Virus record (IMG/VR): IMGVR_UViG_3300035698_003535
Span: 1 to 24,130 of that record
Source of the DNA: a virus
DNA: 24,130 nucleotides
Strand: one strand, 5' to 3'
The notes beneath the pieces were generated by a model. It was given only the letters and a program-made list of their open reading frames with translations, did no database searches and was not told where the DNA came from. Each line of letters opens with the position of its first letter. The stretch's first letter is position 1. The translations under genes were made by a program, and so were the position numbers. Positions 2,735 to 22,649 of the stretch are shown here, piece after piece.

Positions 2735-5700
2735 TCAATTCTTGTAGGACATAAATCCCTGATATAAACTAATTATATTATTTACATCCGCACTAGCCCA
2801 TTGTGCTGTTACTGTTACATCCATGTTAGCGGTTGTGTTAACATTCGCTACAGCTATGATTTCAAGTTCCGTACCATCTACGTCTAAATCAATATGCACC
2901 GCTCTTGGGCCAGCAGCACCCAACGTTCTTTGTGTTGCGTTAGCGTCTATATGCCAATGTGACCCTATTCCTATAGCTCCAGCAATAGGGTTTAAAGTTG
3001 CAACAACATTACCGCCAACTCTGATTCTTAATGTAATTCTATCAGCAGCAGTAGGCCCACCATTCTGTATAATACCATCTGCATGAAACTTAAACATATT
3101 ACCTGCACATAAACTATTAGCAGCCATTACACCTGTCCATAGCGTAGTTTCTGTCGTTGTATTCTCTACTGTAACAGTCGATACCGCTACATCACTTGTC
3201 CTGTCTATGGCTCTCTGTGTAGCTACGTTAGTAATATAGAATTTACCATCATAATATTCTAACGCTCCAGCTTCGGGTGTACCAAGTAAAGTATTAGAAG
3301 TAAGGGTTATAGGGTCTGAGAATATAAAGAATGGGTCATCATCTTCTGAATAACTTATCTGTCCGTCATTGGTATCTCCATCGAATACTATCGCAGGGTC
3401 TACGTCTGCATTGTTACCTACATACAAATCTCCGGTTATTCTTGTAAGTGGGGAAGTAAGTCTTATACCTGTGGTCGCCCCTATATCTATATATCCATCA
3501 GCAAGTGAATCTATGTATTCGTTACCGTCTGTCTGTGTAAATATTATTTTATCGGTAGCAAGTGTAGTACCGTTTAGGTCTATCATAGTGTCAGCCGTTA
3601 AGTCAAGATGTCCGTCATCAACAGAGCTAATTGATATATTGGTATTTCGGAAATATAACTTCTCTGTAGTATCAATAATTATATCGTCTTGAAACTGGAA
3701 ATAATCTTCGCCTTCCATCCATGTTAATAACCCATTATTGAGTTCACCTGTAAACTGTATGTATGGGTCTACCCCAGCCGTTGCTAACATACCTACATCT
3801 AAATGTCTGCCAACTCGCATATCTCCCGTAGCGTCTACATCAAATCTTGATAGTCCACCTACCGTCCATTGACATAGTATACTTACGCCTGATCCTGTGG
3901 TATTCTCAGCAACGTTCATATACTGTCCGATATATCCTGCCGTACCGGATTGGTTAACAGCTACGTAGTTCTCCATACCTTTTTCTTGTCCACTAGAGGC
4001 AGTTAACGTAGGAGTTATAACTAATGTACCATCTATCTCGGTATTGTTACTAATATCAAAGTGTGAACTTGCTACATTCCAACTTACTGATTCAACAAAC
4101 GCTGTTAAGTTATCGTCTGTGAATAGAAATTGAGGATCGTTAACACCATCATATATAATTATAGCTCCACCTTTAAATGCAGTAACCGAATTTAATGATG
4201 GTGACGTACCTATCAGATAAGGTGCATATCCTACGTCACCAATACCAGAAGCAGTAAAATCTAGTTCAGATGTTTCTAATGTCGAACCATTAGGCATTGT
4301 TACGTCAAACTGACCGCCTGTTATACTCATGCCTGTTCCAGCTACTACCGTTCCTGTGGTAGTGAAAGCACCGCTTTGTAAAGTAGCCGTACCGTCTGTA
4401 AACGTCTTAGTTGTAGCCATTGTTATATTCCCATCCGCATAAACAGTACCGTCAACTTCTAAATCACCTTCGATAATAAGATTGTCTTGTCCTGTAGCTA
4501 GACTTGTAGCTGTAAGCGTTGATGTTGTTCCTATAGCTGATACGTTTATAGCTGTTGAACCGCCGCCTCCACCTAATGAAGCTTCAGTACCATTCCCGCT
4601 ATTCCATAATGTGGCTATATTAGCTACACTTAACACTGTAGAATATATTCTAAAATCGTCTACTTTACCATCAAAGTAAAACTGAGTACCATTGTTCGTT
4701 CGTCTAGTACCTATAGTAAAATTATCTGTTTTTATAGTTGCATCTGTTATAACATCTTTAAACCATACTGTCTTATCTGATTCAACCAAATAACTACCAG
4801 CTGCAGTTATGTCTGAATTATTTTTATAAAAAACAGGAGATGTCCCATCGTGAACTACCGTAAACTGTGTCCATGCACCTATCATATCGTCTGTAACATT
4901 TACCGCACTTGTCCAATCCCATTTACCTACACCATCTACTTTAGCAATTACACGAATAGTATCCGTATCTAACTGCACTCTTGCATCAATATATGTATTA
5001 AATCCTGTATCAGTTGTTTTATGTGTACCCCAAAATATATGCCTATTTCCATCGTCAGCATCAATGTATATCCAACAAGATACAGCACCTTCAGTATCTA
5101 ATGCAAGAGTGGTTATTAAATCATCAGCGGTTATGTAATCGTCACTACCATTAAGATGTAAACAATCGTTAATCTTTCCAACTTCAGAAATATCTTGTGT
5201 ATTATCTCCACCAACTAAAGTACCATCATTGTCGTTTGTACTACTATCATCTACCGTTGTATTTGCGGCATTATCATTCATCTTAGCGTGGAAAACTTCT
5301 GATCCACCGCCACCGCCACCAGTAACAACTTCAGTAACTCCACCTATATAAGCTACCCCTGCCGCGTTTATATCGTCTGTAGAAGTGAGTTGTTCGGCTG
5401 TGACTGTCCCGGTTGTGGTTATCGCAGCATCCCCATACTCAAATTCATCCGCACTTTCGTCAAACGTTATCGTAGCATCATTGGCAGATCCTTTATAAGA
5501 CGTTACGATATCTGTAGCACTATCATCTCCAAGAGTAAGCAGATGTCCTTGCATAGTTATATCATCAGTTGATGTTAGCTGTTCTCCAGTGATAGTGTTT
5601 GTTGTAGTTAAATCAGTAGTCCACGAATAAGCTGCCGAGGGAGTGTTTGTACCGTCTAATCTAAGATATGTTGCTGTTAAAGTAGGGGAAGTAACGTAAT

Positions 5701-5890
5701 CAAGCGTTATTGTTGTACCGCCGTTATCAGTAAATCCAGTGACGTTTACAGTGCGAGGTCTAACCGATTCGGCATCTCCTAAATCGAAGAACTTTAACGG
5801 AGCGCGAGAATCTCTATTATCAGCTTGCACTAATGTACAGACTAACAATATTAAGCAAAAAGATATAATTCTTTTACTTTGGATATACAT
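2735..5890 (-). CDS. Large exported tail-fibre-like protein with LamG domain, 1051 aa
   Basis: This is the largest gene of the window. Residues 1-23 form a signal peptide (KRIISFCLILLVCTLVQA, then D). Residues 95-175 hold fibre-type repeats including two copies of EQLTSTDDI (about 103-111 and 166-174). A LamG/concanavalin-like domain spans about 199-430, with ISEVGK..CLHLNG near its start and YFDGKVDDFRIYSTVLS at its end, both classic for the family and usually linked to glycan or protein binding. It is framed by poly-glycine linkers at 191-197 and 440-445. Residues 450-880 are beta-rich fibre repeats, followed by the frequent fibre motif EYYDGKFYITN and a C-terminal jelly-roll-like domain. 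The likely role is receptor or glycan binding. A signal peptide is unusual for a tail fibre. Its start overlaps the previous gene by 17 bases and has only a weak ribosome-binding site. Confidence 0.85.
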   Translation of the reverse strand: MYIQSKRIISFCLILLVCTLVQADNRDSRAPLKFFDLGDAESVRPRTVNVTGFTDNGGTTITLDYVTSPTLTATYLRLDGTNTPSAAYSWTTDLTTTNTITGEQLTSTDDITMQGHLLTLGDDSATDIVTSYKGSANDATITFDESADEFEYGDAAITTTGTVTAEQLTSTDDINAAGVAYIGGVTEVVTGGGGGGSEVFHAKMNDNAANTTVDDSSTNDNDGTLVGGDNTQDISEVGKINDCLHLNGSDDYITADDLITTLALDTEGAVSCWIYIDADDGNRHIFWGTHKTTDTGFNTYIDARVQLDTDTIRVIAKVDGVGKWDWTSAVNVTDDMIGAWTQFTVVHDGTSPVFYKNNSDITAAGSYLVESDKTVWFKDVITDATIKTDNFTIGTRRTNNGTQFYFDGKVDDFRIYSTVLSVANIATLWNSGNGTEASLGGGGGSTAINVSAIGTTSTLTATSLATGQDNLIIEGDLEVDGTVYADGNITMATTKTFTDGTATLQSGAFTTTGTVVAGTGMSITGGQFDVTMPNGSTLETSELDFTASGIGDVGYAPYLIGTSPSLNSVTAFKGGAIIIYDGVNDPQFLFTDDNLTAFVESVSWNVASSHFDISNNTEIDGTLVITPTLTASSGQEKGMENYVAVNQSGTAGYIGQYMNVAENTTGSGVSILCQWTVGGLSRFDVDATGDMRVGRHLDVGMLATAGVDPYIQFTGELNNGLLTWMEGEDYFQFQDDIIIDTTEKLYFRNTNISISSVDDGHLDLTADTMIDLNGTTLATDKIIFTQTDGNEYIDSLADGYIDIGATTGIRLTSPLTRITGDLYVGNNADVDPAIVFDGDTNDGQISYSEDDDPFFIFSDPITLTSNTLLGTPEAGALEYYDGKFYITNVATQRAIDRTSDVAVSTVTVENTTTETTLWTGVMAANSLCAGNMFKFHADGIIQNGGPTAADRITLRIRVGGNVVATLNPIAGAIGIGSHWHIDANATQRTLGAAGPRAVHIDLDVDGTELEIIAVANVNTTANMDVTVTAQWASADVNNIISLYQGFMSYKN
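4556..5320 (-). other. LamG domain cassette flanked by poly-Gly linkers (within the 1051-aa gene)
   Basis: Inside the large fibre gene, codons for GGGGGGS (5300-5320) and GGGGGS (4556-4573) bracket a single LamG-type domain (4601-5296). Fibre-repeat sequence resumes on both sides. The symmetrical linkers suggest that the domain was acquired as a module and can move independently of the fibre shaft. Confidence 0.65.
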
Positions 5891-6182
5891 AACAGCGTAT
5901 CTCGTAATCTCCGTATTCTTCTGATGTCCAGCCTTTGCGGTCTCGCGTTCTATCGTCTACTAACCATTCACCGTTTTTCTTATATTCGCACCATCTATGC
6001 GGTTCGCCTTTTATCCATCCTCTAGCCATACGATATTCGTCACCTTTAGCTTTATGATACCGCATAGCCATTTTAGTAGCTTTTTTACAGGGTGTATCAT
6101 AAGCCCTTATCTGTAACTTCTCTAACCTACTTGTAGGTAGAGTGAATAACATTAACCCTACCAATAATAATTTAAACATCAT
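5874..6182 (-). CDS. Small transglutaminase-like protein with possible Cys-His-Asp triad, 102 aa
   Basis: The N-terminus (KLLLVGLMLFTLP, residues 4-16) is a hydrophobic signal or anchor without a clear A-x-A site. The mature part reads Cys32-K-K-A, a helix, then PHRWCEYKKNGEWLVDD (residues 61-77). The order Cys ... His62-x-Trp ... Glu-Tyr ... Asn-Gly-x-Trp ... Asp76/77 matches the transglutaminase-like cysteine-peptidase core, in which Cys, His and Asp are catalytic. It is much shorter than typical members, so it may be a minimal domain. An enzyme exported to the periplasm could act on peptidoglycan peptides or crosslink proteins, and no other endolysin candidate is visible. It overlaps the genes on both sides. 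The family assignment is from motif pattern only. Confidence 0.6.
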   Translation of the reverse strand: MMFKLLLVGLMLFTLPTSRLEKLQIRAYDTPCKKATKMAMRYHKAKGDEYRMARGWIKGEPHRWCEYKKNGEWLVDDRTRDRKGWTSEEYGDYEIRCYVYPK

Positions 6183-7410
6183 CTAAACTCGATAATACTT
6201 GATAATACACTACCGCTGTTATCGCTCCCTGTGCAGTAAACGCACCACCAGCATTTTTGGTTATTTGTATATCAGTTTCAGCACTTGTTATCTCAGTAGC
6301 AGCGTTATTATCAAACATAGTGTTTACTTTAGTATTCTGTGCTACCGCCGCTGCTGTAGCTAAAGCTTGCGTAGAACCATCTATATAAGCGGCATCCCAT
6401 GTTTCACCACCTACTAAAGCGGTATCTACTCTAAATGAACAACCTATAATCTTTGCTCCTGCTGGTATATCTACTTCTATATCTACTGTAGCTGCCGCTG
6501 GTATGTTAGCCGAAGCGGATGATGTAGAATATACAATACCTCCGGTATCTTCCGTATTATCTCTTTGGTTAATATTGAAATTCATTACAGCCGTAGCACT
6601 TGCTAAGTTATACTGAATACTCCCTATTTCAGCAGCATCGTCAGCAGCAAATACTAGTGAAACAGCACCAGAATCTCGTATATCAGCTATGGCCATTGCA
6701 CTATCTAGTATAAATACGTTATCGCCTACTGCCGAACCTGTTGATACCCCAGCCATCATAGGTACGTCACCAACACCGCCTAAAGTATATGTGCTAAATA
6801 TCATGTACTGAGTATCTGTACCCATCTGGACGGTATTGGCACCGCCGTCTACAAGTAACTGATTAGCATTAGCATCTGATTCAACTCTAAAGTCTATGTC
6901 TTGACTTGCTTCATTAATAACTACTTCACCTGTATCCGCACCATCAGCAGCCGCTAATATAAGATAACTTCTTTGTGTCCCGGCTTGCATAACTTGAAAT
7001 ATCAGACTACCGGCTTCTGCACCATTTGATACGTCTAAAGATCTGCTTACTATATTCGCAAAATCAGTAAGTTGTGAAGCATCATCTTCACCTCGAAATG
7101 TAATATTACCTAAATAATCGGCATCCGCAGGAGACACGCTATTTTTATAAAAATACAAAAAAGGATTATTATCATCTGCATTGGTATTTTCTATGGTAAC
7201 TTGTGGGTTCTGCGTAACTGCACTTGTAACAGTTAAACTATCCAAAGAAGCCGCACCAGATATAGTAGCTTTTATAGCACTATTTGTTGAATCGAATATA
7301 GTATTTAAAATATATTCTACTCCGTAAAAACCCGGATCCGCTTTAACTTGTGAAAATATACTCCCTAATAATACTAACGCTAATACACTTAACAAAAATA
7401 TCTTACGCAT
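6172..7410 (-). CDS. Exported fibre-like structural protein, 412 aa
   Basis: Residues 1-24 form a signal peptide (RKIFLLSVLALVLLGSIF, then QVKA-D). The mature part contains the fibre motif VTIENTNADDNNPFLYFYKN (about 71-90), then GNITFRGEDDASQ, a pattern common in marine-type phage tail fibres, followed by beta repeats (VVINEASQDIDFRVESDANA, about 168-187). The C-terminal 120 residues look like a separate beta-sandwich. No peptidase-type chaperone domain is visible at the end. A strong AGGAGG site precedes the start at 7410. The first residues of the mature protein resemble those of the upstream 48-residue mini-protein. It is probably a surface or fibre component; how an exported fibre joins a virion is unclear. 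Confidence 0.8.
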   Translation of the reverse strand: MRKIFLLSVLALVLLGSIFSQVKADPGFYGVEYILNTIFDSTNSAIKATISGAASLDSLTVTSAVTQNPQVTIENTNADDNNPFLYFYKNSVSPADADYLGNITFRGEDDASQLTDFANIVSRSLDVSNGAEAGSLIFQVMQAGTQRSYLILAAADGADTGEVVINEASQDIDFRVESDANANQLLVDGGANTVQMGTDTQYMIFSTYTLGGVGDVPMMAGVSTGSAVGDNVFILDSAMAIADIRDSGAVSLVFAADDAAEIGSIQYNLASATAVMNFNINQRDNTEDTGGIVYSTSSASANIPAAATVDIEVDIPAGAKIIGCSFRVDTALVGGETWDAAYIDGSTQALATAAAVAQNTKVNTMFDNNAATEITSAETDIQITKNAGGAFTAQGAITAVVYYQVLSSLDDV

Positions 7411-10839: not shown

Positions 10840-11058
10840 TTAATCTCCTATTTGTGTGCCGGTTATTTTAACAGCATTTCCATTCGCGGCTTTTATGAAA
10901 ATGTCGTTACCGAATATACCCCATGTATTTGCTTTCATTGTACTGTTTTTAGGTGTATCTTTAAATACTACGGGATTGCCTAAAGCGTTTCTGTATATCT
11001 GCTCAAATCTATCGTTCATATCTTTATCTTTTAATCGTGTTTTCTTTATAGGTTCCAT
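10840..11058 (-). CDS. Small hypothetical virion-region protein, 72 aa
   Basis: I do not recognise this 72-residue protein. It has a basic N-terminal third (MEPIKKTRLKDKDMNDRFEQ), then a beta-like region with repeated short strands (GNPVVFKD, WGIFGNDIFIKA, NAVKITGTQIGD). The pattern of the second half (Asn-Asp-Ile-Phe-Ile-Lys...Asn-Gly-Asn-Ala) resembles small phage beta proteins that cap or connect fibres, but this is a weak impression. Its start codon shares one base with the stop of the exported fibre-like gene upstream (TAATG). It ends just before the ribosome-binding site of the first ejection-type gene. Confidence 0.6.
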   Translation of the reverse strand: MEPIKKTRLKDKDMNDRFEQIYRNALGNPVVFKDTPKNSTMKANTWGIFGNDIFIKAANGNAVKITGTQIGD

Positions 11059-12467
11059 TATTCTTTATACTCCGTTGCTCTTATCCACGATTTACCTACA
11101 CCACCAAAAAATCTCGTTCCACCACTTGTTCCATTTAATCCTACATTTACACCAGCCGAACCTATACGAACTCTATATACATGTTCATCATCATCCGCTG
11201 CCGTTGTTGTATATATAAATGATAAAGTATCTATTTTATCAGCAGAAACTACTCGAAGTATACCAACATCTAATGCTGCTGCCGTTGAATCTATGAATAA
11301 CGGACATATAACATCTCCACCGCCTCCGCTTCCTGATACGTTTAACATTGCTTCTATAACAATAGTATTTCCAGTAATAGCGGTAATAGAAACAGTTAAT
11401 GCTTCTGTACCTTCGGTTATTTGTGGGATATTATCATCTAACGATATGTTCTGATTAGCATCCGTTATAACTGCTGCCGTAAAATTACTTACTGTCTGTA
11501 CCGCTGCACCTGGTAGAACATTATCTTGCCACGACCCATATGATTCTTCAGTTAAATTACCAGCTCCAACCGCATCCATCCAAAACCAATCGAGTACACG
11601 CCAGTATGCCGAATCTATTACTGAATATCTTAGTTCACCAGCAGAATTACCTGAAGTATCAGTTTTAGTTGGCGCGGTAGTAGTTAATTTATATTGTGTA
11701 CCGCCAGAATTAACTACTACATATCCTTTTGTACTGTTCGCCCTAGAACCGCCACTTGTAACAAAATCAGCTGCCGTACCTAAAGCTAAAGAAGTATCGG
11801 TAGTTTTATTTATACGTGTCGTTCCATGATAAACAATACCAGGACTAACCGTTACTGTCGCTGGTGTTACTACGCTTATAGTATAATTCTCTCTTTGAAA
11901 GTTTTCTTGCTCGCTTCCTAACGTTACAGCGGTAACTCTATCATCTCTAACAGCAAATATCTGTGTTGGGTCACTCGATACTCTCGATAATCTTAATGAA
12001 TCAGCCGTTATTGCCGGATCAGCCGCGCCTATGCTTTCTTCTGAATAAGTATAAACACCTTCGCTTGATAAATCCACGAAAGTCCATTTACTTGCAGTAT
12101 ACAAATGTGCCGTAGCATCTTTTTCTACTCTTGTACCAGTAATATATGCACGACCTGACGTTGTAGTAGCCGTTAAAGTTCCTGACGTTGTAGGTACAAC
12201 TAATCCAGTGAATACCCAATCAGAAAACGCATCATCCCATCGTTTATCGGTTCTAGCGTTATCCGTCAATGCTGTTACTGTTACTGTACCAGCTTGTATT
12301 AACGCACCATCTACGCTATTAGCTGCATCAGTCAATGTCTGACGATTAGATTCCATACGCGTTATTGTTACATCAGAAGGCGATACATAACTAAGTGTTG
12401 TTACTGTAGCAAATGCTGATGTTGCTATAACCATGAATCCTATAAACAAAATAAATACTTTTTTCAT
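11058..12467 (-). CDS. Exported tail-fibre-like protein, 469 aa
   Basis: Residues 1-20 are a Sec signal peptide (MKKVFILFIGFMVIATSAFA, cleavage after AFA). The mature protein is threonine-, alanine- and glycine-rich and beta-type throughout, starting with a pattern often seen at the base of phage fibres (VTITRMESNRQTLTDAANSV). A glycine-rich linker (SGSGGGGD, about residue 378) separates a C-terminal beta domain of about 85 residues that may be a receptor-binding tip. It follows the gp10-like gene with a TAATG overlap, the place where a podovirus would have a tail needle or spike. The signal peptide is not expected for a protein assembled in the cytoplasm. There is no enzymatic motif I can recognise. 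Confidence 0.75.
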   Translation of the reverse strand: MKKVFILFIGFMVIATSAFATVTTLSYVSPSDVTITRMESNRQTLTDAANSVDGALIQAGTVTVTALTDNARTDKRWDDAFSDWVFTGLVVPTTSGTLTATTTSGRAYITGTRVEKDATAHLYTASKWTFVDLSSEGVYTYSEESIGAADPAITADSLRLSRVSSDPTQIFAVRDDRVTAVTLGSEQENFQRENYTISVVTPATVTVSPGIVYHGTTRINKTTDTSLALGTAADFVTSGGSRANSTKGYVVVNSGGTQYKLTTTAPTKTDTSGNSAGELRYSVIDSAYWRVLDWFWMDAVGAGNLTEESYGSWQDNVLPGAAVQTVSNFTAAVITDANQNISLDDNIPQITEGTEALTVSITAITGNTIVIEAMLNVSGSGGGGDVICPLFIDSTAAALDVGILRVVSADKIDTLSFIYTTTAADDDEHVYRVRIGSAGVNVGLNGTSGGTRFFGGVGKSWIRATEYKE

Positions 12468-13996
12468 TATGCCCCTACCTTTTTACCTTTTATGTCACCT
12501 TTATCTATATAATTAACGCCTATACCTAATAGTTCTACTTCAAAATCTACAGACATTCTTATCTCAAATGCTATACTTACGCCTTTGGAATACTTTATTT
12601 TTGGTAATACTCTATCCATTACACCGCTTTGATTCCTTACGCGTATAAGACCTAACAACATAACTTCACCACTTAAATCTTGATTGAAGTCTGCTTTACC
12701 TACTAAATCGCTTAATCTACCGTCAAGTAAATATCTTATAAATAAATCGTTTTCTCCGGTACAACGTATCTCCGGGAATATCTCCGTTATTCTTACGTTT
12801 CTACCTTTAGAAATGGTTACGTCTTTAGTAAGCAAATATATCGGTATTTTAGACCCGTTAAAAGTACGTTCTCCTGGTGCATGTCTTAATACGAAATTGC
12901 TTGACGAACTACCTATCCATAAAAATGGTTCTTCTACTGTAGGATTACTTGACATATAAAACGATACATCTCTATCTCGTACCCATCGTGCTGAGCCACC
13001 TAAAGCATCCCACCAAAATTCAAGATTGTTTTCTGTTTCTCCACGTTCAACAAATGATAACATATAATAGTTATCGTAATAATACGCGACAGCTTTATCC
13101 AGATATACTTTTTTAAGATTAATTTTATCGTGTATCTTTTCTACGTGCGTTAGAAGTTTAGTACCTACACCATCAAATGACCATAACTCGATATTCTTAT
13201 CAGTCGCGGCTAGAAAGTTAATAGCTTTTTCTACTTTAATAGCCGTTCTACCAGCTACGATATTCCGTTCTTCTATTAAATCTATAGAAAAAGTCGACGC
13301 AACAGCGCTTATTTGGTCACCATTAAGTACATAGATACCTTGTGTATTCAAAAAATAAAAGAAATCTTCTATTTTACCTAACGCGAGATTGATTCCTTTT
13401 CCAGTACCTATGATCAATTGTATACTATCAACTGGGTCATCATATACGTCATATTCAAGATTCTTTGATATAAAAGCAAAATTCTGACTTATTAATATAA
13501 GTCTGTCTTTGTGTTCCATTAAGTCTATAGGATTAACCGGATCTCCGTTAGAATCTTCCACTGTAACTTTTTCAAAAGTATTATCATTGTTACCATCATA
13601 TTTATACAGATTCAAACCATCAACAAAATATAATATTGATTGTGTGTTTACTTTTACTATCCAATGTTTAGGGTATGCCGTTGTGTTCAACCCTGATTTT
13701 ATTTCAGTAGCAGTATTGCTTATTTCGTCAAGCAACCATAACTTCCCATCTACCGTATAACAAAAACTTTTTACTTTAACTACAACACCAGTTTCTTGCG
13801 TATCGTATCTTGCACCCCACGTTGCTCTATCGGTTAATTCAGTAGTTATATCTTTAACCGTACCAGGCGGTGTTTTTAGTACACCATCTCTTGATAGAAG
13901 ATTCTCGCATACTACTGGTGAAGCAAAATCGCCTTCGTTTTTAGGATTACGATCATCTATTCTACCTGTAAACTTCCAGAATTTATTCACTTGCAT
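12467..13996 (-). CDS. P22 gp10 / T7 gp12-like tail hub protein, 509 aa
   Basis: A 509-residue beta-rich protein, of the same order as P22 gp10 (about 470 residues). The N-terminus carries the pattern CENLLSRDGVLKTPPGTVKD (about 30-49), similar to the start of gp10/T7 gp12-like stabilisation or nozzle proteins. It continues with repeated beta-blades (VKSFCYTVDGKLWLLDE, KHWIVKVNTQSILYFVDGLN) that fit a beta-propeller-like fold. It would close the head-tail channel below the adaptor. A GTG at 13990 (codon 3) has a better-spaced AAGGA site than the ATG at 13996, so the true start may be two codons later. It overlaps the coiled-coil gene by 14 bases. The gp10 call is from pattern and order. Confidence 0.65.
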   Translation of the reverse strand: MQVNKFWKFTGRIDDRNPKNEGDFASPVVCENLLSRDGVLKTPPGTVKDITTELTDRATWGARYDTQETGVVVKVKSFCYTVDGKLWLLDEISNTATEIKSGLNTTAYPKHWIVKVNTQSILYFVDGLNLYKYDGNNDNTFEKVTVEDSNGDPVNPIDLMEHKDRLILISQNFAFISKNLEYDVYDDPVDSIQLIIGTGKGINLALGKIEDFFYFLNTQGIYVLNGDQISAVASTFSIDLIEERNIVAGRTAIKVEKAINFLAATDKNIELWSFDGVGTKLLTHVEKIHDKINLKKVYLDKAVAYYYDNYYMLSFVERGETENNLEFWWDALGGSARWVRDRDVSFYMSSNPTVEEPFLWIGSSSSNFVLRHAPGERTFNGSKIPIYLLTKDVTISKGRNVRITEIFPEIRCTGENDLFIRYLLDGRLSDLVGKADFNQDLSGEVMLLGLIRVRNQSGVMDRVLPKIKYSKGVSIAFEIRMSVDFEVELLGIGVNYIDKGDIKGKKVGA

Positions 13997-14600
13997 CCTT
14001 CTTCACGTTTGCTCTATCTATTTTTAACCGTTTTTCTTCTATTTTAAGTATTTCGTTACGTTCATCCATATCAAGTTTCACTTTAGCGTTTTCGTATTCT
14101 TTACGATTAACCATCTTTTCTTTAGCGTCAAGTTTAACTGCACGTTGGTTTAAGTCTTTAGACCGTTTATCTATTCGATTGTCATCTTCTTTAAGAAAAT
14201 CTAGTTTCTTCTTATAGTTATCTTCTATTTTACGATTCTTTTCTAACTGTAACGAGTTCATTTCTTTGATAGACTTCGTTTCAGCAAGATTAGATGCTAT
14301 TTCTTTTGTTTTACGTTCATATTCGCTTCTTTTAGTAGTATAATCCGAGATAGTAAGATTAAGTTCTTTTTCTTCTTCTTTAAGTTGGTTCATATATTCT
14401 TTATACTTTTCTTCGCTTTGATATAAATTGTTTTTGAGTTGTTTATGTTCTTCTACTCTATTCTGTTCTATCTGCAGTATATCTTGTTTCTGTCTTTCGA
14501 TATTTTCTTGTGCCTGTATTACTTTTGTATGTTCAGTTTCAAGACCGCCTACGAACTGTTCAAGATAAGGTTTTATATCTTTATATATTTTTTCTCTCAT
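13983..14600 (-). CDS. Long coiled-coil protein, 205 aa
   Basis: The entire protein is charged and helical, dominated by Glu, Lys, Gln and Arg with no glycine-rich or beta segments after residue 20. It gives an almost continuous heptad pattern (ENIERQKQDILQIEQNRVEE, then DRNEILKIEEKRLKIDRANV near the C-terminus). No membrane segment or signal peptide is present. It sits between a small beta protein and the gp10-like gene in the neck region. It could be a scaffolding, needle-like or internal virion component; it is too short and too early in the order to look like a standard tape measure. The start at 14600 overlaps the upstream stop as ATGA. Confidence 0.7.
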   Translation of the reverse strand: MREKIYKDIKPYLEQFVGGLETEHTKVIQAQENIERQKQDILQIEQNRVEEHKQLKNNLYQSEEKYKEYMNQLKEEEKELNLTISDYTTKRSEYERKTKEIASNLAETKSIKEMNSLQLEKNRKIEDNYKKKLDFLKEDDNRIDKRSKDLNQRAVKLDAKEKMVNRKEYENAKVKLDMDERNEILKIEEKRLKIDRANVKKDASE

Positions 14601-14914
14601 TTGTACTCCACTATTCTTAGTTCTGAAGTTTTAGTAGCAGCTACAACAAAGTAAATGCTAAACGTAACTTCTACATTAGTGAATATTTTCGTATCTCCAC
14701 TATATAAAACCCTACCGTTTGCTGATGTTACATCACTACCGCCAAAATATACATCTTCATTACCAGCGTTTTGTATCTCTATAGAATGATGTTCTTTGCT
14801 TATAATTACTTCAACTGTAGCCGCGTCAGTTATAGCTACGGCAGCTCGTTGTTGTGCTAGACTTATACGAGCCATATTTAATACAGTTTCGGTTGATCTA
14901 CGTTGTGTTCCCAT
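14597..14914 (-). CDS. Small phage beta-structure protein, 105 aa
   Basis: I choose the ATG at 14914 (MGTQRRSTETVLNMARISLA), which has GGGAGG nine bases upstream; a start at 14941 would add nine residues and lacks a site. The second half carries HHSIEIQNAGNEDVYFGGSD followed by VTSANGRVLYSGD, a pattern (I-Q-N-x-G-x-x-D-V-Y-x-G-G-x-D-V-T ... N-G ... L-x-x-G) common in small beta-sandwich phage structural proteins of unknown detailed role. It overlaps the end of the O-antigen-ligase-like gene by 17 bases and the next gene by four. A minor virion protein at the head-tail junction or a decoration protein is plausible. Confidence 0.7.
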   Translation of the reverse strand: MGTQRRSTETVLNMARISLAQQRAAVAITDAATVEVIISKEHHSIEIQNAGNEDVYFGGSDVTSANGRVLYSGDTKIFTNVEVTFSIYFVVAATKTSELRIVEYK

Positions 14915-16049
14915 TAAGCAATTCCACCTCCCACAATGCAAACATAGGGATTATAAATATAGCGAATCTACCTAAAAATATAGGAAATTGCGCTAACGAT
15001 ACGATAAAAAATACTAACAAGAAACCTGTCAACGCTAACGTATTAGGAGATTTTACAGCGTTTCTAAACCTTATAAAACACGACCTTATATACCCACCTA
15101 ACAGTATTAATCCTAAAATACCCCATTCAAAGAATAACGATATAGGCAAATTGTGCGGGTTATCCCATTGAACAACATGAACTATATCTCCTGTTCTTGT
15201 AATAGAATTAGCGTAATTGATATGTTTATTTTTAGTGAAGTTTCTGAACGAATCTAATCCCCAACCGGCAATAGGATGTCTGGTACAATCCCTTAATACT
15301 CGTTTCCATTGTCGCGGTCTTGTATTAAGCGTTCCCATAGGAGCATCGACTTTAATGACATACAATGACGCTAAAAGACACAAAGTGACTACTATTGTCC
15401 ACCACTGCCATCTTTTCACTCTATACCATAATATAAGCGCATAGCCTGTAACGCCTCCTAGAACGCATATTGTTGATCTGGTCATATAAAGAGGTATCGC
15501 AGCTAATAAAACAAGCCACATAGCGTATTTTGTGCGTCTGGTGGCGATTATCGGTATACTCATAGCTACTAATACGGCTAAACCAGATTTATTACCCATA
15601 AACCCGCATGGGTCGGTATTTTCTATAGTTCTTACTGCGCCAACGGTATCTTTAATAACCATCCAGTAATAAAAATCGAAGTCTATAAGCTGTAACACCA
15701 TATACGCGATATTGCAACCTACGAAGATTATCAATATTTTGATATAATGGTCTATATGCTCACGTTTGAACACTATTTTTGTCATATAGTATAGAACGCA
15801 CCCGAAAAAGATGTTCGTAATATAGATTATCCCTGTTTGTAGACCGAAGAAGATATATAACGATACAGTCCAGAAAATGAATAGCGTTAACCATATATTA
15901 CGTAACAATAACGAAAACGTTACCATTATACCTAGACAGAATAACGCTTGAAATACTTCTCGTTCGGGTAATCCGTAATATGCCGCTATACCTAAAAAGA
16001 TTAACGTACATATAAACCATCGTACAATTTTATGTATATCTATGTTGAT
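14898..16049 (-). CDS. O-antigen ligase/polymerase-like membrane protein (Wzy_C), about 383 aa
   Basis: A multi-pass inner-membrane protein with about ten hydrophobic segments. Counting from the first ATG (15926), the Wzy_C hallmarks are Arg150 (MTRST), RPRQW at 203-207, HPIAGWGLDSF at 217-227 after a periplasmic loop, and PHNLPISLFFEWGILGLILL at 257-276 with His258. In WaaL-type enzymes such Arg and His residues help transfer undecaprenyl-linked glycan. The open frame extends 41 codons or more upstream of 15926 and encodes another hydrophobic helix (RWFICTLIFLGIAAYY), so the ATG start is probably too short. No ATG, GTG or TTG occurs there; a GAGGAGA site points to ATC at 16049 or ATA at 16043. 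It lies between the adaptor and neck genes, a place where a glycan enzyme is not expected. Confidence 0.8.
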   Translation of the reverse strand: MNIDIHKIVRWFICTLIFLGIAAYYGLPEREVFQALFCLGIMVTFSLLLRNIWLTLFIFWTVSLYIFFGLQTGIIYITNIFFGCVLYYMTKIVFKREHIDHYIKILIIFVGCNIAYMVLQLIDFDFYYWMVIKDTVGAVRTIENTDPCGFMGNKSGLAVLVAMSIPIIATRRTKYAMWLVLLAAIPLYMTRSTICVLGGVTGYALILWYRVKRWQWWTIVVTLCLLASLYVIKVDAPMGTLNTRPRQWKRVLRDCTRHPIAGWGLDSFRNFTKNKHINYANSITRTGDIVHVVQWDNPHNLPISLFFEWGILGLILLGGYIRSCFIRFRNAVKSPNTLALTGFLLVFFIVSLAQFPIFLGRFAIFIIPMFALWEVELLNGNTT

Positions 16050-17044
16050 ATTACTCTCCTCGGCCCGGTCTGTCCTAACCCTGAACGTCTTGATTTCTGC
16101 CCTCTGTTCTTACCTATGTTTTTAGCAGCGTTTACTATTAATTCGTTAACGAGTTTGGTTAGTTTGCCTTCTTCTCTTAACAACGGAGGCGATGCCGGAT
16201 TACCAGAAAACTTCCATGCGAAAAACTCTACTCTACAATATTGTTTTAATACAGGATCATATTTCTGGTCAAACGGTAAATCATTCCCTGCCGTTGGCGC
16301 TGTTACTTTTAAATAATAGTCTATATATACAAGGTTAGCTGCCGATGGTGTTGGATTAAAGTATATCTTATCATCCCATAATGCCGCTTCGTCTGGTGTA
16401 TCAAAAGTGCTTGAAGATGGTTTAGGGTTCTTCGCTATTAAATCGTAATAATCTATCATCCAGATAGGTTTCTGATTAACCCTTTCTGTAAGTCTATATA
16501 TCTCATCTACATCCGTTATAGAAGCTTGTGTGCGTTCTGCCGCTACTGAAAATAGTTCCGCTATAACAGTTTGCCCGGTACTCGTACCGTCAGCGATAGT
16601 AACTACAGAAGTCGACCCAGTTGTATCCGATAGTATCTGTAAATATCCGTTCGCGTCTGCCGATGCTTGTGAACCGCTTGTAGCAGCATTTATAGCTATA
16701 ACTACAAGTGCTATCGTTGTTGCAGTCGATATATCTATATCAGCATAATCCGTTCCGTCTATATGAACATCAATCGTATCGTTAGTTTGTCCAGTAAACG
16801 TAGTTTTATCCCCTACGATAACGGCTTTAGTTATATCTCTATAAGCTTGACCAGCTATAGTCTTAAATGATGCAGATTCGCTTATACTATCTTTTAAATC
16901 GTTTTCAAATAACCATTGTTTCATCTGCCGTAATCCATCTTCCATACAATCAAGTAATAGGGTATCTAAATCGTCATCTACTATATCGTAATCCACCCTA
17001 CGTTTGATACTAGCTAGCATATTATTTACTGTACTTTTTCCCAT
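16040..17044 (-). CDS. Head-tail adaptor (gp4/gp6-like) with inserted beta domain, 334 aa
   Basis: The start at 17044 shares a base with the upstream stop (TAATG) and follows AAGGAG; a GTG at 17050 lies right against that site and is rejected. The N-terminus (STVNNMLASIKRRVDYDI, then DDDLDTLLLDCMEDGLRQMK) and the later segment (WDDKIYFNPTPSAANLVYIDYYLK, shown in part as FNPTPSAANLVYIDYY) are typical of phage neck adaptors with a helical bundle and a beta arm. Between them, at about residues 74-172, lies an extra beta-rich domain with ADIDISTATTIALVVIAINA, which resembles hook-IN-type or fibre repeat modules. The adaptor would join the portal to the gp10-like hub. Its stop overlaps the start of the O-antigen-ligase-like gene. 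Confidence 0.7.
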   Translation of the reverse strand: MGKSTVNNMLASIKRRVDYDIVDDDLDTLLLDCMEDGLRQMKQWLFENDLKDSISESASFKTIAGQAYRDITKAVIVGDKTTFTGQTNDTIDVHIDGTDYADIDISTATTIALVVIAINAATSGSQASADANGYLQILSDTTGSTSVVTIADGTSTGQTVIAELFSVAAERTQASITDVDEIYRLTERVNQKPIWMIDYYDLIAKNPKPSSSTFDTPDEAALWDDKIYFNPTPSAANLVYIDYYLKVTAPTAGNDLPFDQKYDPVLKQYCRVEFFAWKFSGNPASPPLLREEGKLTKLVNELIVNAAKNIGKNRGQKSRRSGLGQTGPRRVIST

Positions 17045-17445
17045 TACCACTCCTTATCCATGCTATCCCATACTGCTTGTTGTACTATATTTAAAATGTT
17101 CGATTCTAAATCTATAGATTCGTAAGTATTTATACACATTCCTTTATCATCAAAAGCTAATATTCCCCACGATTCTGGTGTTTTATCTCTAAAATCAAAA
17201 TCTAGTTTTATGTTTTGTTCAGATAGTTTATGTTGTAATATAAGCGGATTCGCTCCTTGTAATATACCTAGTTTGTCAGCGTGTGCCGTACTTAATAAAA
17301 ACATAGCGCATATAGTAATCGTACCTGCTTTAACAGCTTTCTTGGCTATTCTCATACGTGTTTTGAACGTACTATCATCTATTTTATTCTTTTCCATAAT
17401 GTTTTTAACCTTTCTCCGTAACAACTTGTTTTTCTTACCTGACAT
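17044..17445 (-). CDS. Exported hypothetical protein with a very long signal n-region, 133 aa
   Basis: From the start at 17445 (good AAGGGGGA site) there is a basic region of about 38 residues (SGKKNKLLRRKVKNIMEKNK...), then a short hydrophobic segment (ITICAMFLLSTAHA) and an AHA-D cleavage motif near residue 57. Internal ATGs at residues 17 and 31 would give a more usual signal length but lack clear ribosome-binding sites. The mature part of about 76 residues is mixed and includes DFRDKTPESWGILAFDDKGM and an acidic-aromatic C-terminus. I do not recognise it. Its position between capsid and adaptor genes is that of a head-completion protein, which would not normally be exported. Confidence 0.65.
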   Translation of the reverse strand: MSGKKNKLLRRKVKNIMEKNKIDDSTFKTRMRIAKKAVKAGTITICAMFLLSTAHADKLGILQGANPLILQHKLSEQNIKLDFDFRDKTPESWGILAFDDKGMCINTYESIDLESNILNIVQQAVWDSMDKEW

Positions 17446-17462
17446 AATCCCCCTTAAAATGG

Positions 17463-17487
17463 TGGGGTCTTTTGTTCGGAGACCCCA
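17463..17487 (-). terminator. Hairpin after the exported capsid-neighbour gene
   Basis: TGGGGTCT and AGACCCCA form a perfect 8-bp stem around a 9-base loop, 14 bases downstream of the stop at 17501 and just before the ribosome-binding site of the next gene. On the minus strand it is followed by CCATTTT rather than a long U-tract, so it is probably a partial terminator or an mRNA stabiliser that keeps capsid-region message levels above those of the neck genes. Confidence 0.5.
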
Positions 17488-17500
17488 AAACCGATATTAC

Positions 17501-18091
17501 TTATTCACACATGACGAAACATTCTACATCATCAGTCCCTGCTGCTGCTGTATCATAAAAGAAACCTGCATTACCCTGCGTAGAAGCGTCAGTACCGCCT
17601 CCCACGTAGTCTGCTGCTTCTCCCGCAACATCGCCACAACTCATAGCATCGCCAGCGGTTACAGTTGATGTGTCCGTCTGTACCCTAACTTGCGCTAAAC
17701 CATGTGTCTGTAACCAAGTCCAGTTCCTATTACCTCTATCTTGTGCCGCTGTATTGCTAAGCGTCACAGGCGTTAATGCTACCTGCGCGATTATACCAGC
17801 TACAGCCGAATCGTAAGATGTCGTAGTAGTAGTCACTGTTACACCGTCATCTGATATAATATCATAAACAACGATAGATTCAGTTACAAGTGTAGCACTG
17901 TTTGCCGTACCCGCAGCAGGAACGTATCGTACCATACGAAACGTTTTGCCGGGAGCTGACTGTGTGCCACCCTGTGCCGAACTTTTGTTCTCGCCTATTC
18001 CTGGACTAAGCCTATAACCCGGCGTTGCCGCGTACGCTACTCCTGCACCAAGCAGGGCAACAAGAATCAAACAAAATATTTTCTTCATCAC
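17501..18091 (-). CDS. Exported protein next to the capsid gene, 196 aa
   Basis: A clear signal peptide is present: MMKKIFCLILVALLGAGVAY, then A, with AYA-A cleavage at residue 21. The mature 175 residues are Thr-, Ala-, Gly- and Val-rich and beta-type. Two Cys lie near the C-terminus (ECFVMCE), with another in DAMSCGDVAG, so a disulphide after export is possible. Immediately downstream of the major capsid gene, an equivalent small beta protein would usually be called a capsid decoration protein. The signal peptide argues against simple cytoplasmic assembly. I do not recognise a family. It is followed by a hairpin at 17463-17487. Confidence 0.75.
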   Translation of the reverse strand: MMKKIFCLILVALLGAGVAYAATPGYRLSPGIGENKSSAQGGTQSAPGKTFRMVRYVPAAGTANSATLVTESIVVYDIISDDGVTVTTTTTSYDSAVAGIIAQVALTPVTLSNTAAQDRGNRNWTWLQTHGLAQVRVQTDTSTVTAGDAMSCGDVAGEAADYVGGGTDASTQGNAGFFYDTAAAGTDDVECFVMCE

Positions 18092-18099
18092 GCCTCCTT

Positions 18100-19125
18100 T
18101 TATGCAGTTGATACGTCTGTCATAACGAAATGAGCTTTAGGCAGATTCGTTACGAGATTACAAAAAACCCAAAAATACAATGCTTTGTTCAATGTAGCTC
18201 CAACTCTTTCAAACCCGTCTGGATTCCACATGAAGTTTCCATCTTTAAGAACTTCAAACGTAAGATGATTTGAGTTAAGACCATAAACATACCCATCCGT
18301 TATAGTGTTATCCGTATCATCCGTCAGATTTCTGTTCTCAAAGCCAATCGTGGTACTATCAAGCATGATAGTTTTAATTCCAAGCTGCGCGAGTTTATCG
18401 TTCGGCTGGAACCTATTCTGTGTAGATAAAAAGCCTACAAGACCGGAATAGTTACTTTCATCCATGATTATCAAATCGACACTATCGTTTGCACGAATAG
18501 TCTGCCGAATCTGTGCTTGTTTCATAGCCTTAATACCGCTTTCCGAACCAATATCAGTTATCGTAGTCGTAACCGCACCGTTCTGAAACGCTTTTGACGT
18601 TGAACGGGTCTGACCACCTACTGTACCAGCTGTCGGTGTTGCAGAAACAAGAGCAGGAACACTCTGAGGTTCGTCACTACCTGGCGAACTTTTCCAGAAT
18701 GAAGAGTTAAACTGATTTAGGATTGTATCTTCCGCTTGTTCTCTAAGCTCAAGTGCAAAATCCTTTATAGCTGCTCTTCCTTTGTTCCTAGCTTTATCTA
18801 GTGCATTTAAAATTACCGAACCTGTGAATGTTTTCCAATCAAATCTCATCCTCTGATCCGGGTCTTGCTCGTTTGTTGTCATGGTATCGCTTTTACCCTG
18901 CCACTTAAAGTTAGTACTCTGTCGAGTTCTAACTCCTTTCCAAATTTCCAGCCCGCCATCTTTAACTTTAAAACTCTTGCTTGTACCCTTACTCTTTAAA
19001 TAAGCAAGCAAAAGGTTCTGGTTAATGATACCGTCACCGTGTTTACCAAAATCCGGTATAGTGTGTAGGACTAGCGATTCCAGAATATCGTCACTACTAG
19101 CGTATGCAACGTTAGTCTCAGCCAT
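18100..19125 (-). CDS. Major capsid protein, 341 aa
   Basis: Placed directly after the scaffold gene and of normal size for an HK97-fold coat protein. Visible features fit a coat protein: an N-terminal arm, a long helical spine region (FTGSVILNALDKARNKGRAA, about 95-114, then DFALELREQAEDTILNQFNS), a glycine/threonine-rich insertion at about 150-185, and a C-terminal beta part including IMDESNYSGLVGFLSTQNRF and ANDSVDLIIMDE. The segment LAQLGIKTIMLDSTTIGF is typical of phage coat proteins in this group. No signal peptide. The start at 19125 has a GGTGG-type site. Identification is by order, size and general pattern. Confidence 0.8.
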   Translation of the reverse strand: MAETNVAYASSDDILESLVLHTIPDFGKHGDGIINQNLLLAYLKSKGTSKSFKVKDGGLEIWKGVRTRQSTNFKWQGKSDTMTTNEQDPDQRMRFDWKTFTGSVILNALDKARNKGRAAIKDFALELREQAEDTILNQFNSSFWKSSPGSDEPQSVPALVSATPTAGTVGGQTRSTSKAFQNGAVTTTITDIGSESGIKAMKQAQIRQTIRANDSVDLIIMDESNYSGLVGFLSTQNRFQPNDKLAQLGIKTIMLDSTTIGFENRNLTDDTDNTITDGYVYGLNSNHLTFEVLKDGNFMWNPDGFERVGATLNKALYFWVFCNLVTNLPKAHFVMTDVSTA

Positions 19126-20443: not shown

Positions 20444-20797
20444 CTATGCTAAAGTGGTTTGCATTTTCTGCGTGCCTTCACGCCTTATTTTCTTCATCTT
20501 ACGTTTTATACCTTCTTTCACCGAAGGATCACCGTTCTTGTGAAATTCTACCGCATCTCGATAACCAGCTTTTTCCCACGTTCGCCAGTTATCTATTGTT
20601 TTACCCGTCTTGTTATCAACAAACTCTTTACCTATCCCGAAAGTATCCCTTGTACCCGATATAGCTATAGAGGTTATCTGCCTGTCCATTTGCTTAGTGC
20701 ATACAGGACATTTCTCTACTCTAGCACTCTGAGCCATAGGCTTACTTATATCACGGCTTATATCGCATTTATAGCATTTATACTCATATACCGGCAT
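20444..20797 (-). CDS. FmdB-like zinc-ribbon protein, 117 aa
   Basis: The N-terminus MPVYEYKCYKCDISRDISKP with Cys8/Cys11 and a second knuckle KCPVC at Cys30/Cys33 is the FmdB/CxxC_CxxC_SSSS-type zinc ribbon, where MP-x-Y-E-Y-x-C is diagnostic. The remaining 80 residues hold a segment FGIGKEFVDNKTGKTIDNWR and a lysine/arginine-rich helical tail (KRKMKKIRREGTQKMQTTLA), which suggests nucleic-acid contact. Such proteins are frequent between portal and scaffold genes in phages, function unknown. It overlaps the portal gene end by 14 bases and has an AGGAG site six bases before its ATG. Confidence 0.8.
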   Translation of the reverse strand: MPVYEYKCYKCDISRDISKPMAQSARVEKCPVCTKQMDRQITSIAISGTRDTFGIGKEFVDNKTGKTIDNWRTWEKAGYRDAVEFHKNGDPSVKEGIKRKMKKIRREGTQKMQTTLA

Positions 20798-22649
20798 TTG
20801 CTGCTCCTTCGGGTAGTGCAGCTTCTCCAGGTATCTCTGGCGCTGGCTGTGCTTCCTCGAATACAGTCTCAGGATTAAGATTGTATTTGCTTACTATCTT
20901 GTCTATGAAACCAGGACTTATCTGTCTACCGTTTGGATACTCTTCACTTGGCATCCTTAACAACGTGAAAGCTCCTTCGCCTAATAGTTCTCTAAGTAAT
21001 AGTATCAAATCGCTACGTTCCTTATCCGTATTAGGTCTAAAACTCGTCTGTATATCAACGTCAATAAAATAATCAGCCGTTAGAAGCTCAGTTAACGGGT
21101 TTATTACTAATCCATTAACCGTTATAGCTTCGTACCAGTCAGGTTTAGCTCCGCCTGTTATCTTGAAGAATGTCTCGCCATCCCAGAAATTGACTATAAT
21201 ATCTTTACCAGTGTTGAGTTGTTCGCGTATAAGATTCCTTAATCCTTGCTGTATATCTATCTGGTTTGATTCAAACCCTGCTTCTTGCTGTTTAAGTTCT
21301 TCGGCAAACTTAACGTTTGGTCTTTCGCCTAATCTTGTTTCTGGTATACTCCACCCTTTAGCCGCCCTTTCTTTCCATATAGTGAACAGTTCTTTATTCT
21401 CGATTGATACTATAGCCGGTTGTATCGGTTGGATATTAGCGTTAGGTTGTCCGTCTACTGGTACAAGGTCGTTTATTACATCGCTTTCTAACGCGATAAC
21501 TCCATCAACTTTAACCTTATTCTTGTTATAACCTATCTTCGGTACGCTTTTCTCAGCCGTTTCTTTCAAGAACATAACGTATTCATTCATCTCGTCAGCC
21601 ATCTTCTTGTTAATCTGAAACATCGGTACTGGGTACATAGCGCCGTATTTATGTAACTGACCTATCTTTAAGTTAAATCCGTTCGTAGTGTAAGGTCTTT
21701 TAAACATAGCTATTTCTTCGTTAGAATATGATGGTGCGACTACAAGCGTCCAGTAATCGTTTGCGCCACGTTTAATCTGGAACTCGTACAACAACACAGT
21801 AGTTTTCATAGCTTGGTCACTATGTTTAGCGTATTCAAGATTCTGAGCATGCGAACCGTATTGTGCGTCTGTACCTACGCCTACTTTATCTTCAAAACCG
21901 GGATACTTTTTATCGAACTCGGCTTTACTCATCATCACACGTTTTAAAGAATATCGTCTAAACTTTAATCTTTCGGCACGCCAATCAAACAATATGTTTA
22001 ACGGATTCCATCTTTGCACATACGTTCTTTCGCCATCGCCAAAAGTTTCGTTTGTACTGAACGCCGATAACGGGTCTGGCCCTTCTTGCGCTAGTTTCTT
22101 CTCGGCTTCTTCGTTGTTCGATACTTTACCTACGAACTTCTTTATATTCTGTTTAGCCGTCTGCATAGGAGAGTTTTCTCTGTTAGCTAATTCTTCTTCA
22201 CTTGGTAGTACGATAAGCCTATCAAGCGCATCACGTTCGCCTAGATAATCTACTTCAACACCGCAATATCCCGCTGCGAACATATCGAATAAAGCTATTC
22301 TGTTTTCGTCAAGCGAATCAGACCTATTAAACCAATGGCTTAACGCGCTTTTCATTAAGTCCTCGCCATCTTCAGCTTCGGGTTTACCAGCCTCAGCTAT
22401 AATATCGGGATTCTGATACATAAGCGTTGATATTAACTGGTTCGCCGAAGGGAAATAATCGTTGATTACAGACAGATGTTGCTGTCTTACAACGTGCGGA
22501 TCAGATGCGTTAATCGTCATCATACCTTCGTAGTAATGCACAAGAAACGGATAGTTCCATCGAGTTACTAACTGTTTACGCTGTCTTTGTTCACAGCTTG
22601 CAGCTTCGTCTAGCCAGAACTTTACTTCTGGAAATTTTAGTTTACCCAT
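20784..22649 (-). CDS. Portal protein, 621 aa
   Basis: Lies downstream of the large terminase and upstream of the scaffold and coat genes, the standard portal position, and 621 residues is in the range of podovirus portals. The N-terminal region shows helical portal-type sequence (ASDPHVVRQQHLSVINDYFP, then LISTLMYQNPDI, about 49-83), an early FDMFAAGYCGVEVDYLG strand-turn-strand, and a clip/wing region with QRWNPLNILFDWRAERLKFR (about 211-230). The helical stem region includes EELKQQEAGFESNQIDIQQG. The C-terminus is proline/alanine-rich and probably flexible. The start at 22649 is supported by AAGGA and a TAATG overlap with the 20-residue ORF. The dodecameric ring would form the DNA entry channel. 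Confidence 0.85.
   Translation of the reverse strand: MGKLKFPEVKFWLDEAASCEQRQRKQLVTRWNYPFLVHYYEGMMTINASDPHVVRQQHLSVINDYFPSANQLISTLMYQNPDIIAEAGKPEAEDGEDLMKSALSHWFNRSDSLDENRIALFDMFAAGYCGVEVDYLGERDALDRLIVLPSEEELANRENSPMQTAKQNIKKFVGKVSNNEEAEKKLAQEGPDPLSAFSTNETFGDGERTYVQRWNPLNILFDWRAERLKFRRYSLKRVMMSKAEFDKKYPGFEDKVGVGTDAQYGSHAQNLEYAKHSDQAMKTTVLLYEFQIKRGANDYWTLVVAPSYSNEEIAMFKRPYTTNGFNLKIGQLHKYGAMYPVPMFQINKKMADEMNEYVMFLKETAEKSVPKIGYNKNKVKVDGVIALESDVINDLVPVDGQPNANIQPIQPAIVSIENKELFTIWKERAAKGWSIPETRLGERPNVKFAEELKQQEAGFESNQIDIQQGLRNLIREQLNTGKDIIVNFWDGETFFKITGGAKPDWYEAITVNGLVINPLTELLTADYFIDVDIQTSFRPNTDKERSDLILLLRELLGEGAFTLLRMPSEEYPNGRQISPGFIDKIVSKYNLNPETVFEEAQPAPEIPGEAALPEGAANAGI

Follow-up and report, generated by a model that had tools for sequence, protein, structure and literature searches.

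Why would a virus carry the gene for an O-antigen-ligase-like membrane enzyme among the genes that build its head and tail? The gene lies at 14898–16049 on the minus strand of the window (the whole 24,130-base linear virus record analyzed here), and encodes a membrane glycan transferase of the GT-C type (Wzy_C; PF04932) with 383 amino acids if translation starts at an ATC codon. To our knowledge, the phage Wzy_C enzymes known are optional lysogenic-conversion cassettes.

The Wzy_C gene among the head–tail genes

The structural genes of the window are on the minus strand, in the order large terminase (truncated at the record end), portal, scaffold-like protein, capsid, two small proteins, adaptor, and Wzy_C, followed by a 105-aa protein, a coiled-coil protein, and then tail and fiber-like proteins. 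The portal protein (20784–22649) matched P22_portal (PF16510; 26.9 bits, cut-off 26.1), the major capsid protein (18100–19125) matched phrog_9953 (1e-24), and the SU10-like head–tail adaptor (16040–17050) scored 25.2 bits against PF24175, just below the cut-off of 27. Next to the capsid gene, 17501–18091 encodes a protein with a signal-peptide-like N-terminus (MMKKIFCLILVALLGAGVAYA, followed by ATPGYR); between it and the adaptor gene, a small conserved protein (17044–17445) contains a signal-peptide-like segment. On the other side of the Wzy_C gene, the 105-aa protein (14597–14914), which has no family match, is encoded at the same place in the relative L002 and elsewhere in the other relatives, and the coiled-coil-like protein (205 aa; 13983–14600) or a similar one directly follows Wzy_C in L005, L008, L018, L021, and L038. 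Among the relatives, the adaptor side of the gene is constant, whereas the downstream neighbor varies. Farther downstream are a tail-region protein conserved in the relatives (11058–12467) and a 1051-aa fiber-like protein with a lectin-like Laminin_G_3 domain (2735–5890), both with a signal-peptide-like N-terminus. All of these genes are on the minus strand.

The open frame encoding Wzy_C extends over 403 codons from stop to stop (14898–16109, minus strand). No in-frame ATG, GTG, or TTG is found upstream of position 15926, where the earliest ATG of the frame lies, and helix 1 of the structure model (see below) maps upstream of that ATG. When the window was compared with L002, whose Wzy_C protein is 65% identical, pN/pS over codons 5–41 was 0.42 in the Wzy_C frame, whereas the two alternative frames gave 1.27 and 1.36; thus, the frame is translated upstream of 15926. 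The codon at 16049 is ATC, not ATG, GTG, or TTG, and stands six bases behind AGGAG (AGGAG-N6-ATC; 16047–16060, minus strand), a putative ribosome site within the C-terminal codons of the adaptor gene. The same arrangement is kept in L002 (10008–10021), and the ATC behind AGGAG is therefore best read as the start of the gene in both genomes. In the other seven relatives, an ATG or GTG is placed on the adaptor stop or 1 nt away from it: the junction reads ATGA or GTGA in L005, L008, L018, L021, and L038, and TAATG in L011, with a gap of 1 nt in L015. In the window and L002, the two genes overlap by 10 nt. We also considered a minus-1 frameshift leading from the adaptor gene into that for Wzy_C and rejected it; no canonical slippery heptamer was seen by eye, and the relatives have starts of their own. 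A reading of this DNA made from its sequence alone had placed the gene at 14898–16049 and had it overlap both neighbors. The extent was right, with the ATC start and the minus strand now added, and so were the overlaps, which amount to 10 nt with the adaptor gene and 17 nt with the gene for the 105-aa protein (ATG at 14914). Its label of small neck gene for the latter is at best putative, as the 105-aa protein matches no family and the neighbor on this side changes from relative to relative.

Enzyme family, fold, and active site

That the protein is of the Wzy_C type, as the sequence-only reading had it, was borne out by the Pfam search it had proposed: PF04932 (Wzy_C, O-antigen ligase) matched at 3.8e-13 and 49.9 bits (cut-off 31.7; 54.1 bits by genome search), and the family exceeds the Pfam gathering cut-off in all nine genomes (the window and eight relatives). 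The motifs HPIAGWGLDSF and PHNLPISLFF, on which that reading had drawn, are present in the frame. Neither PHROGs nor NCBIfam yielded a useful match, and WaaL did not appear among the results of a PDB sequence search, even with an eight-row profile. Alignments of two, then six, then eight Wzy_C sequences were used. An initial structure model from three sequences was unusable (pLDDT 39); the AlphaFold model from the six-sequence alignment reached moderate confidence only (pLDDT 58, pTM 0.51). This low-to-moderate-confidence model has 12 long helices, so that the membrane protein foreseen earlier stands, albeit with more than the about ten hydrophobic segments then counted. A predicted loop (residues ∼258–300) precedes the last three helices, as is asked of a WaaL-type enzyme. 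In a VIA structure comparison, the model matched WaaL (7tpg; Z 12.4, rmsd 5.3, 294 residues aligned), and hence the resemblance that had been suggested for structure prediction to look for, but also the SEDS enzymes FtsW and RodA (Z 10–14), with all remaining rows at Z ≤6.6. The fold matches come from this comparison only, a Foldseek search of the model against the PDB having returned no significant match. The predicted fold is thus of the WaaL/SEDS type, common to SEDS enzymes and so not specific to WaaL, and it does not separate a ligase from a polymerase or a protein oligosaccharyltransferase.

The active site was compared in a joint alignment of the family with E. coli WaaL, the Wzy-beta proteins of phages D3 and epsilon15, and cellular homologues. 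E. coli WaaL depends on R215, R288, and H338 as residues important for function (PMC3643930), and the roles of the matching residues in 7TPG have been described (PMC10920833). Numbered from the ATC, R244 aligns with R288 (7TPG R265), the second phosphate-binding Arg, and H299 with H338 (7TPG H313), the acceptor-activating His, each invariant in eight of eight sequences. The site of the first phosphate-binding WaaL arginine (E. coli R215, 7TPG R191) is not conserved across the clade, being R in the window, L002, and L005 and K, H, or E in the others. The refuting outcome named in the sequence-only reading, a protein without the conserved Arg/His, was not obtained: the second Arg and the His are present, and only the first Arg varies. 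Judged from the alignment, the second Arg and the catalytic-type His, a putative WaaL active-site core, are retained in the family.

Both E. coli WaaL and its C. metallidurans counterpart 7TPG (CAZy GT121) have the 12 helices, the long loop, the second Arg, and the His in common with the clade enzyme, which, unlike WaaL, lacks the conserved first Arg, has no NCBIfam match, and is encoded outside an LPS locus; a single-sequence profile comparison with E. coli WaaL was not significant. The protein O-oligosaccharyltransferases PglL, PilO, and PglS share PF04932 with the clade enzyme, and such enzymes are often encoded beside their exported acceptor protein (PMC3643930, PMC12800693). The PglL type has a PglL_A or Wzy_C_2 domain, whereas a Pfam scan found neither (PF15864, PF11846) in any of eight family members.

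Among the phage enzymes, Wzy-beta of the Salmonella phage epsilon15 (AAO06084), a podovirus Wzy_C protein with ∼ten TM helices and the aligned Arg and His, was the nearest by profile of three known enzymes tried (E 5e-5). Wzy-beta of the Pseudomonas phage D3 is of the PF04932 type too and its Arg and His align with those of the clade enzyme, but its score (25.4 bits) is below the cut-off that the clade family exceeds. The gene arrangements differ. In both epsilon15 and D3, the gene runs against the late genes on the other strand and has further conversion genes next to it: that of epsilon15, a temperate phage, lies beyond a terminator and adjoins the alpha-polymerase inhibitor gene, and that of D3 belongs to a conversion region that also contains iap and the gene for an O-acetylase. 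In contrast, the window gene shares the strand of the head–tail genes and overlaps them, and the distinction drawn earlier between D3 and a gene inside the late operon was correct. No alpha-polymerase inhibitor or O-acetylase partner was recognized at the clade loci, without a dedicated search. Papers on LUZ100 and on a halovirus that mention an O-antigen ligase proved irrelevant to the clade enzyme.

Conservation across the clade and its outgroups

Searches of viral contigs with the enzyme, the portal, and the capsid as queries yielded ten related contigs. The region after the adaptor is covered by the window and eight of these (L002, L005, L008, L011, L015, L018, L021, and L038); L007 and L009 end before that spot. 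In all nine genomes, the Wzy_C gene is directly downstream of the adaptor gene, and the ends of the two genes overlap or lie 1 nt apart. All eight contigs are retrievable by capsid or portal alone, so the survey is independent of the enzyme as bait. Its outcome agrees with the placement for which a survey of related phages had been advised: no genome covering the spot lacks the gene, the absence or decay in relatives that was to count against the idea was not encountered, and the coupled ends in nine of nine genomes fit a gene embedded in, and probably cotranslated with, the head–tail genes.

The clade, which consists of uncultured and probably short-tailed phages, is deep: the most distant portal is about 30–32% identical to that of the window, and the GC content ranges from 0.37 to 0.58. 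The Wzy_C gene is under purifying selection (pN/pS 0.36), and its pairwise identities follow those of the capsid (Mantel r 0.86, p ∼0.002) and the portal (r 0.89, p ∼0.001). Among the six mid-distance genomes only, the correlation is weaker (0.42 for capsid and 0.46 for portal), and some exchange of Wzy_C within the clade may therefore have occurred. INPHARED contained no relative of the Wzy_C protein, the portal, or the capsid-adjacent protein. A search of genome contigs with the enzyme returned only weak alphaproteobacterial Wzy_C proteins (24–33%), which thus give no clue to the host. A tyrosine integrase was found in the L038 record only and a large serine recombinase in none of the nine clade records, which may be incomplete. 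L038 is the most GC-rich member (0.58), and prophage copies of it (integrase at G010:C1:23530-24006) might reveal a host.

Among cultured phages, the nearest capsids are those of Myxococcus phage Mx9, Bradyrhizobium phage ppBjS10J-1, and Ruegeria phage 45A6 (25–27% capsid identity). Downstream of the capsid gene, these phages roughly resemble the clade in gene order; their whole records contain no Wzy_C gene, and their structural genes show no signal-peptide pattern. Of 398 genomes belonging to the same phylum as G012 (from which L023 comes), 9 have distant capsid relatives. No Wzy_C profile match was found in six of these nine, with ∼8–10 kb on both sides of the capsid gene, or in the shorter pieces of the others. 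The prophage-like Pseudomonadota regions L045, L047, L048, L050, L051, and L053 contain a distant capsid gene and no nearby Wzy_C profile match. Pseudomonadota genomes with such capsids were considered as hosts of the clade and rejected, the Wzy_C match being missing; they serve as an outgroup instead. Because the gene occupies the same spot in nine of nine genomes, is under purifying selection, diverges like capsid and portal, and is missing from the outgroup records and regions examined, it is a clade-specific core late gene. We consider this status, together with membership in the Wzy_C class, close to certain. Unlike in the known phage cassettes, the enzyme class is here fixed, and probably cotranslated, in the head–tail module across a deep phage clade.

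Candidate acceptors of the transferred glycan

What the enzyme acts on is a matter of graded likelihood. The explanation we favor, tentatively and as a whole at somewhat less than even confidence, is that a core late-operon inner-membrane transferase of the WaaL/Wzy type is made late and alters the host surface glycan. Its synthesis would accompany that of the adaptor; the active loop of the enzyme would face the periplasm, and there a host glycan carried on undecaprenyl pyrophosphate would be passed to the acceptor, most likely a host surface glycan. Late in infection, new surface material would then no longer serve as receptor, and the altered surface may, as the sequence-only reading had suggested, spare progeny adsorption to debris and the cell superinfection. 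Host-surface modification is ranked first, and protein glycosylation second, because D3 and epsilon15 are precedents for phage Wzy_C enzymes that alter the host O-antigen. O-antigen polymerases are usually specific for one repeat unit each. Orthology across phages of 37–58% GC would thus be odd for an enzyme tuned to the surface sugar of one host, and counts against modification of the host surface. The favored explanation is also weakened by the lack of a recognized partner gene, by the varying first Arg, and by a structure model of moderate confidence that gave no significant Foldseek match.

A phage-encoded acceptor would account for conservation across hosts, and the same operons contain candidates. 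Signal-peptide-like starts, called by a crude rule for n-region, h-region, and cleavage site rather than by SignalP, were found on 48 of 208 genes in the nine clade loci versus 4 of 150 genes in five control phages. Half of the control matches are lysis-region proteins, one from D3 and one, annotated as Rz-like, from epsilon15. In the window, the genes with such starts are 17501–18091, 17044–17445, 11058–12467, 6172–7410, 2735–5890, and 2214–2702 (all minus strand). They recur on homologues of the capsid-adjacent protein, the small pre-adaptor protein, the tail-region protein, and the fibers, and the homologues of the first two carry them in all relatives. If exported, as these N-termini would predict, the proteins would share a compartment with the active loop of the enzyme. 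The enzyme might then be a phage protein O-oligosaccharyltransferase that moves host undecaprenyl-pyrophosphate-linked glycan onto Sec-exported phage proteins, with the capsid-adjacent protein, the small pre-adaptor protein, and the fibers as candidate acceptors. The phages with distant capsids lack both traits, the exported-type proteins and the Wzy_C gene; enzymes of this kind have PF04932 in common with WaaL and are often encoded outside LPS loci, beside the acceptor, as is the case for PilO of P. aeruginosa, which lacks the PglL motifs (PMC3643930). The missing PglL_A and Wzy_C_2 domains speak against such an activity. Export itself is predicted by the crude rule. Protein glycosylation is a serious rival, though on the unlikely side. 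Tailed-phage virions assemble in the cytoplasm, which leaves the route of exported proteins into them unexplained. The more specific proposal, in which the clade Sec-exports proteins of its own virion operon and a dedicated Wzy_C enzyme, cotranslated with the adaptor, glycosylates them with host lipid-linked sugars, would be a little less likely again; if true, it would amount to a phage-encoded protein O-glycosylation system within the structural gene module.

Two further explanations fare worse. The gene could be a chance moron, an insertion tolerated at that site of the operon that modifies the host surface without fixed importance, comparable to the conversion or moron cassettes in which the Wzy_C genes of D3, epsilon15, and VarioGold are found. 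A dispensable moron would have been lost or moved in some genomes, whereas the junction is the same in nine of nine, tightly coupled, and divergence is capsid- and portal-like; the moron is disfavored and appears improbable. Less likely still, the enzyme might act on the host pool of undecaprenyl-linked precursors, with no specific surface target, polymerizing or discharging them and so weakening envelope synthesis in aid of lysis or DNA entry. Undecaprenyl-pyrophosphate donors are common to WaaL, Wzy, and SEDS enzymes, the fold of the model resembles WaaL as well as SEDS, and late expression is plausible, but the Wzy_C locus showed no association with lysis genes, and we regard such an effect as very unlikely.

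With host-surface modification retained as the favored explanation, the fixed place of the gene implies a late function needed everywhere in the clade, be it closing the surface behind the progeny or modifying exported phage proteins. The clade operons raise a second question, the reason for signal peptides on structural-operon proteins. The capsid-adjacent protein with the signal-peptide-like start is tandemly duplicated in L002 (6101–7333) and L007 (11519–12745). L005 has two genes between its fiber and tail genes, one for a sulfotransferase (16435–17067; PF13469, 62.6 bits) and one with a weak likeness to glycosyltransferase 2 (17194–18021).
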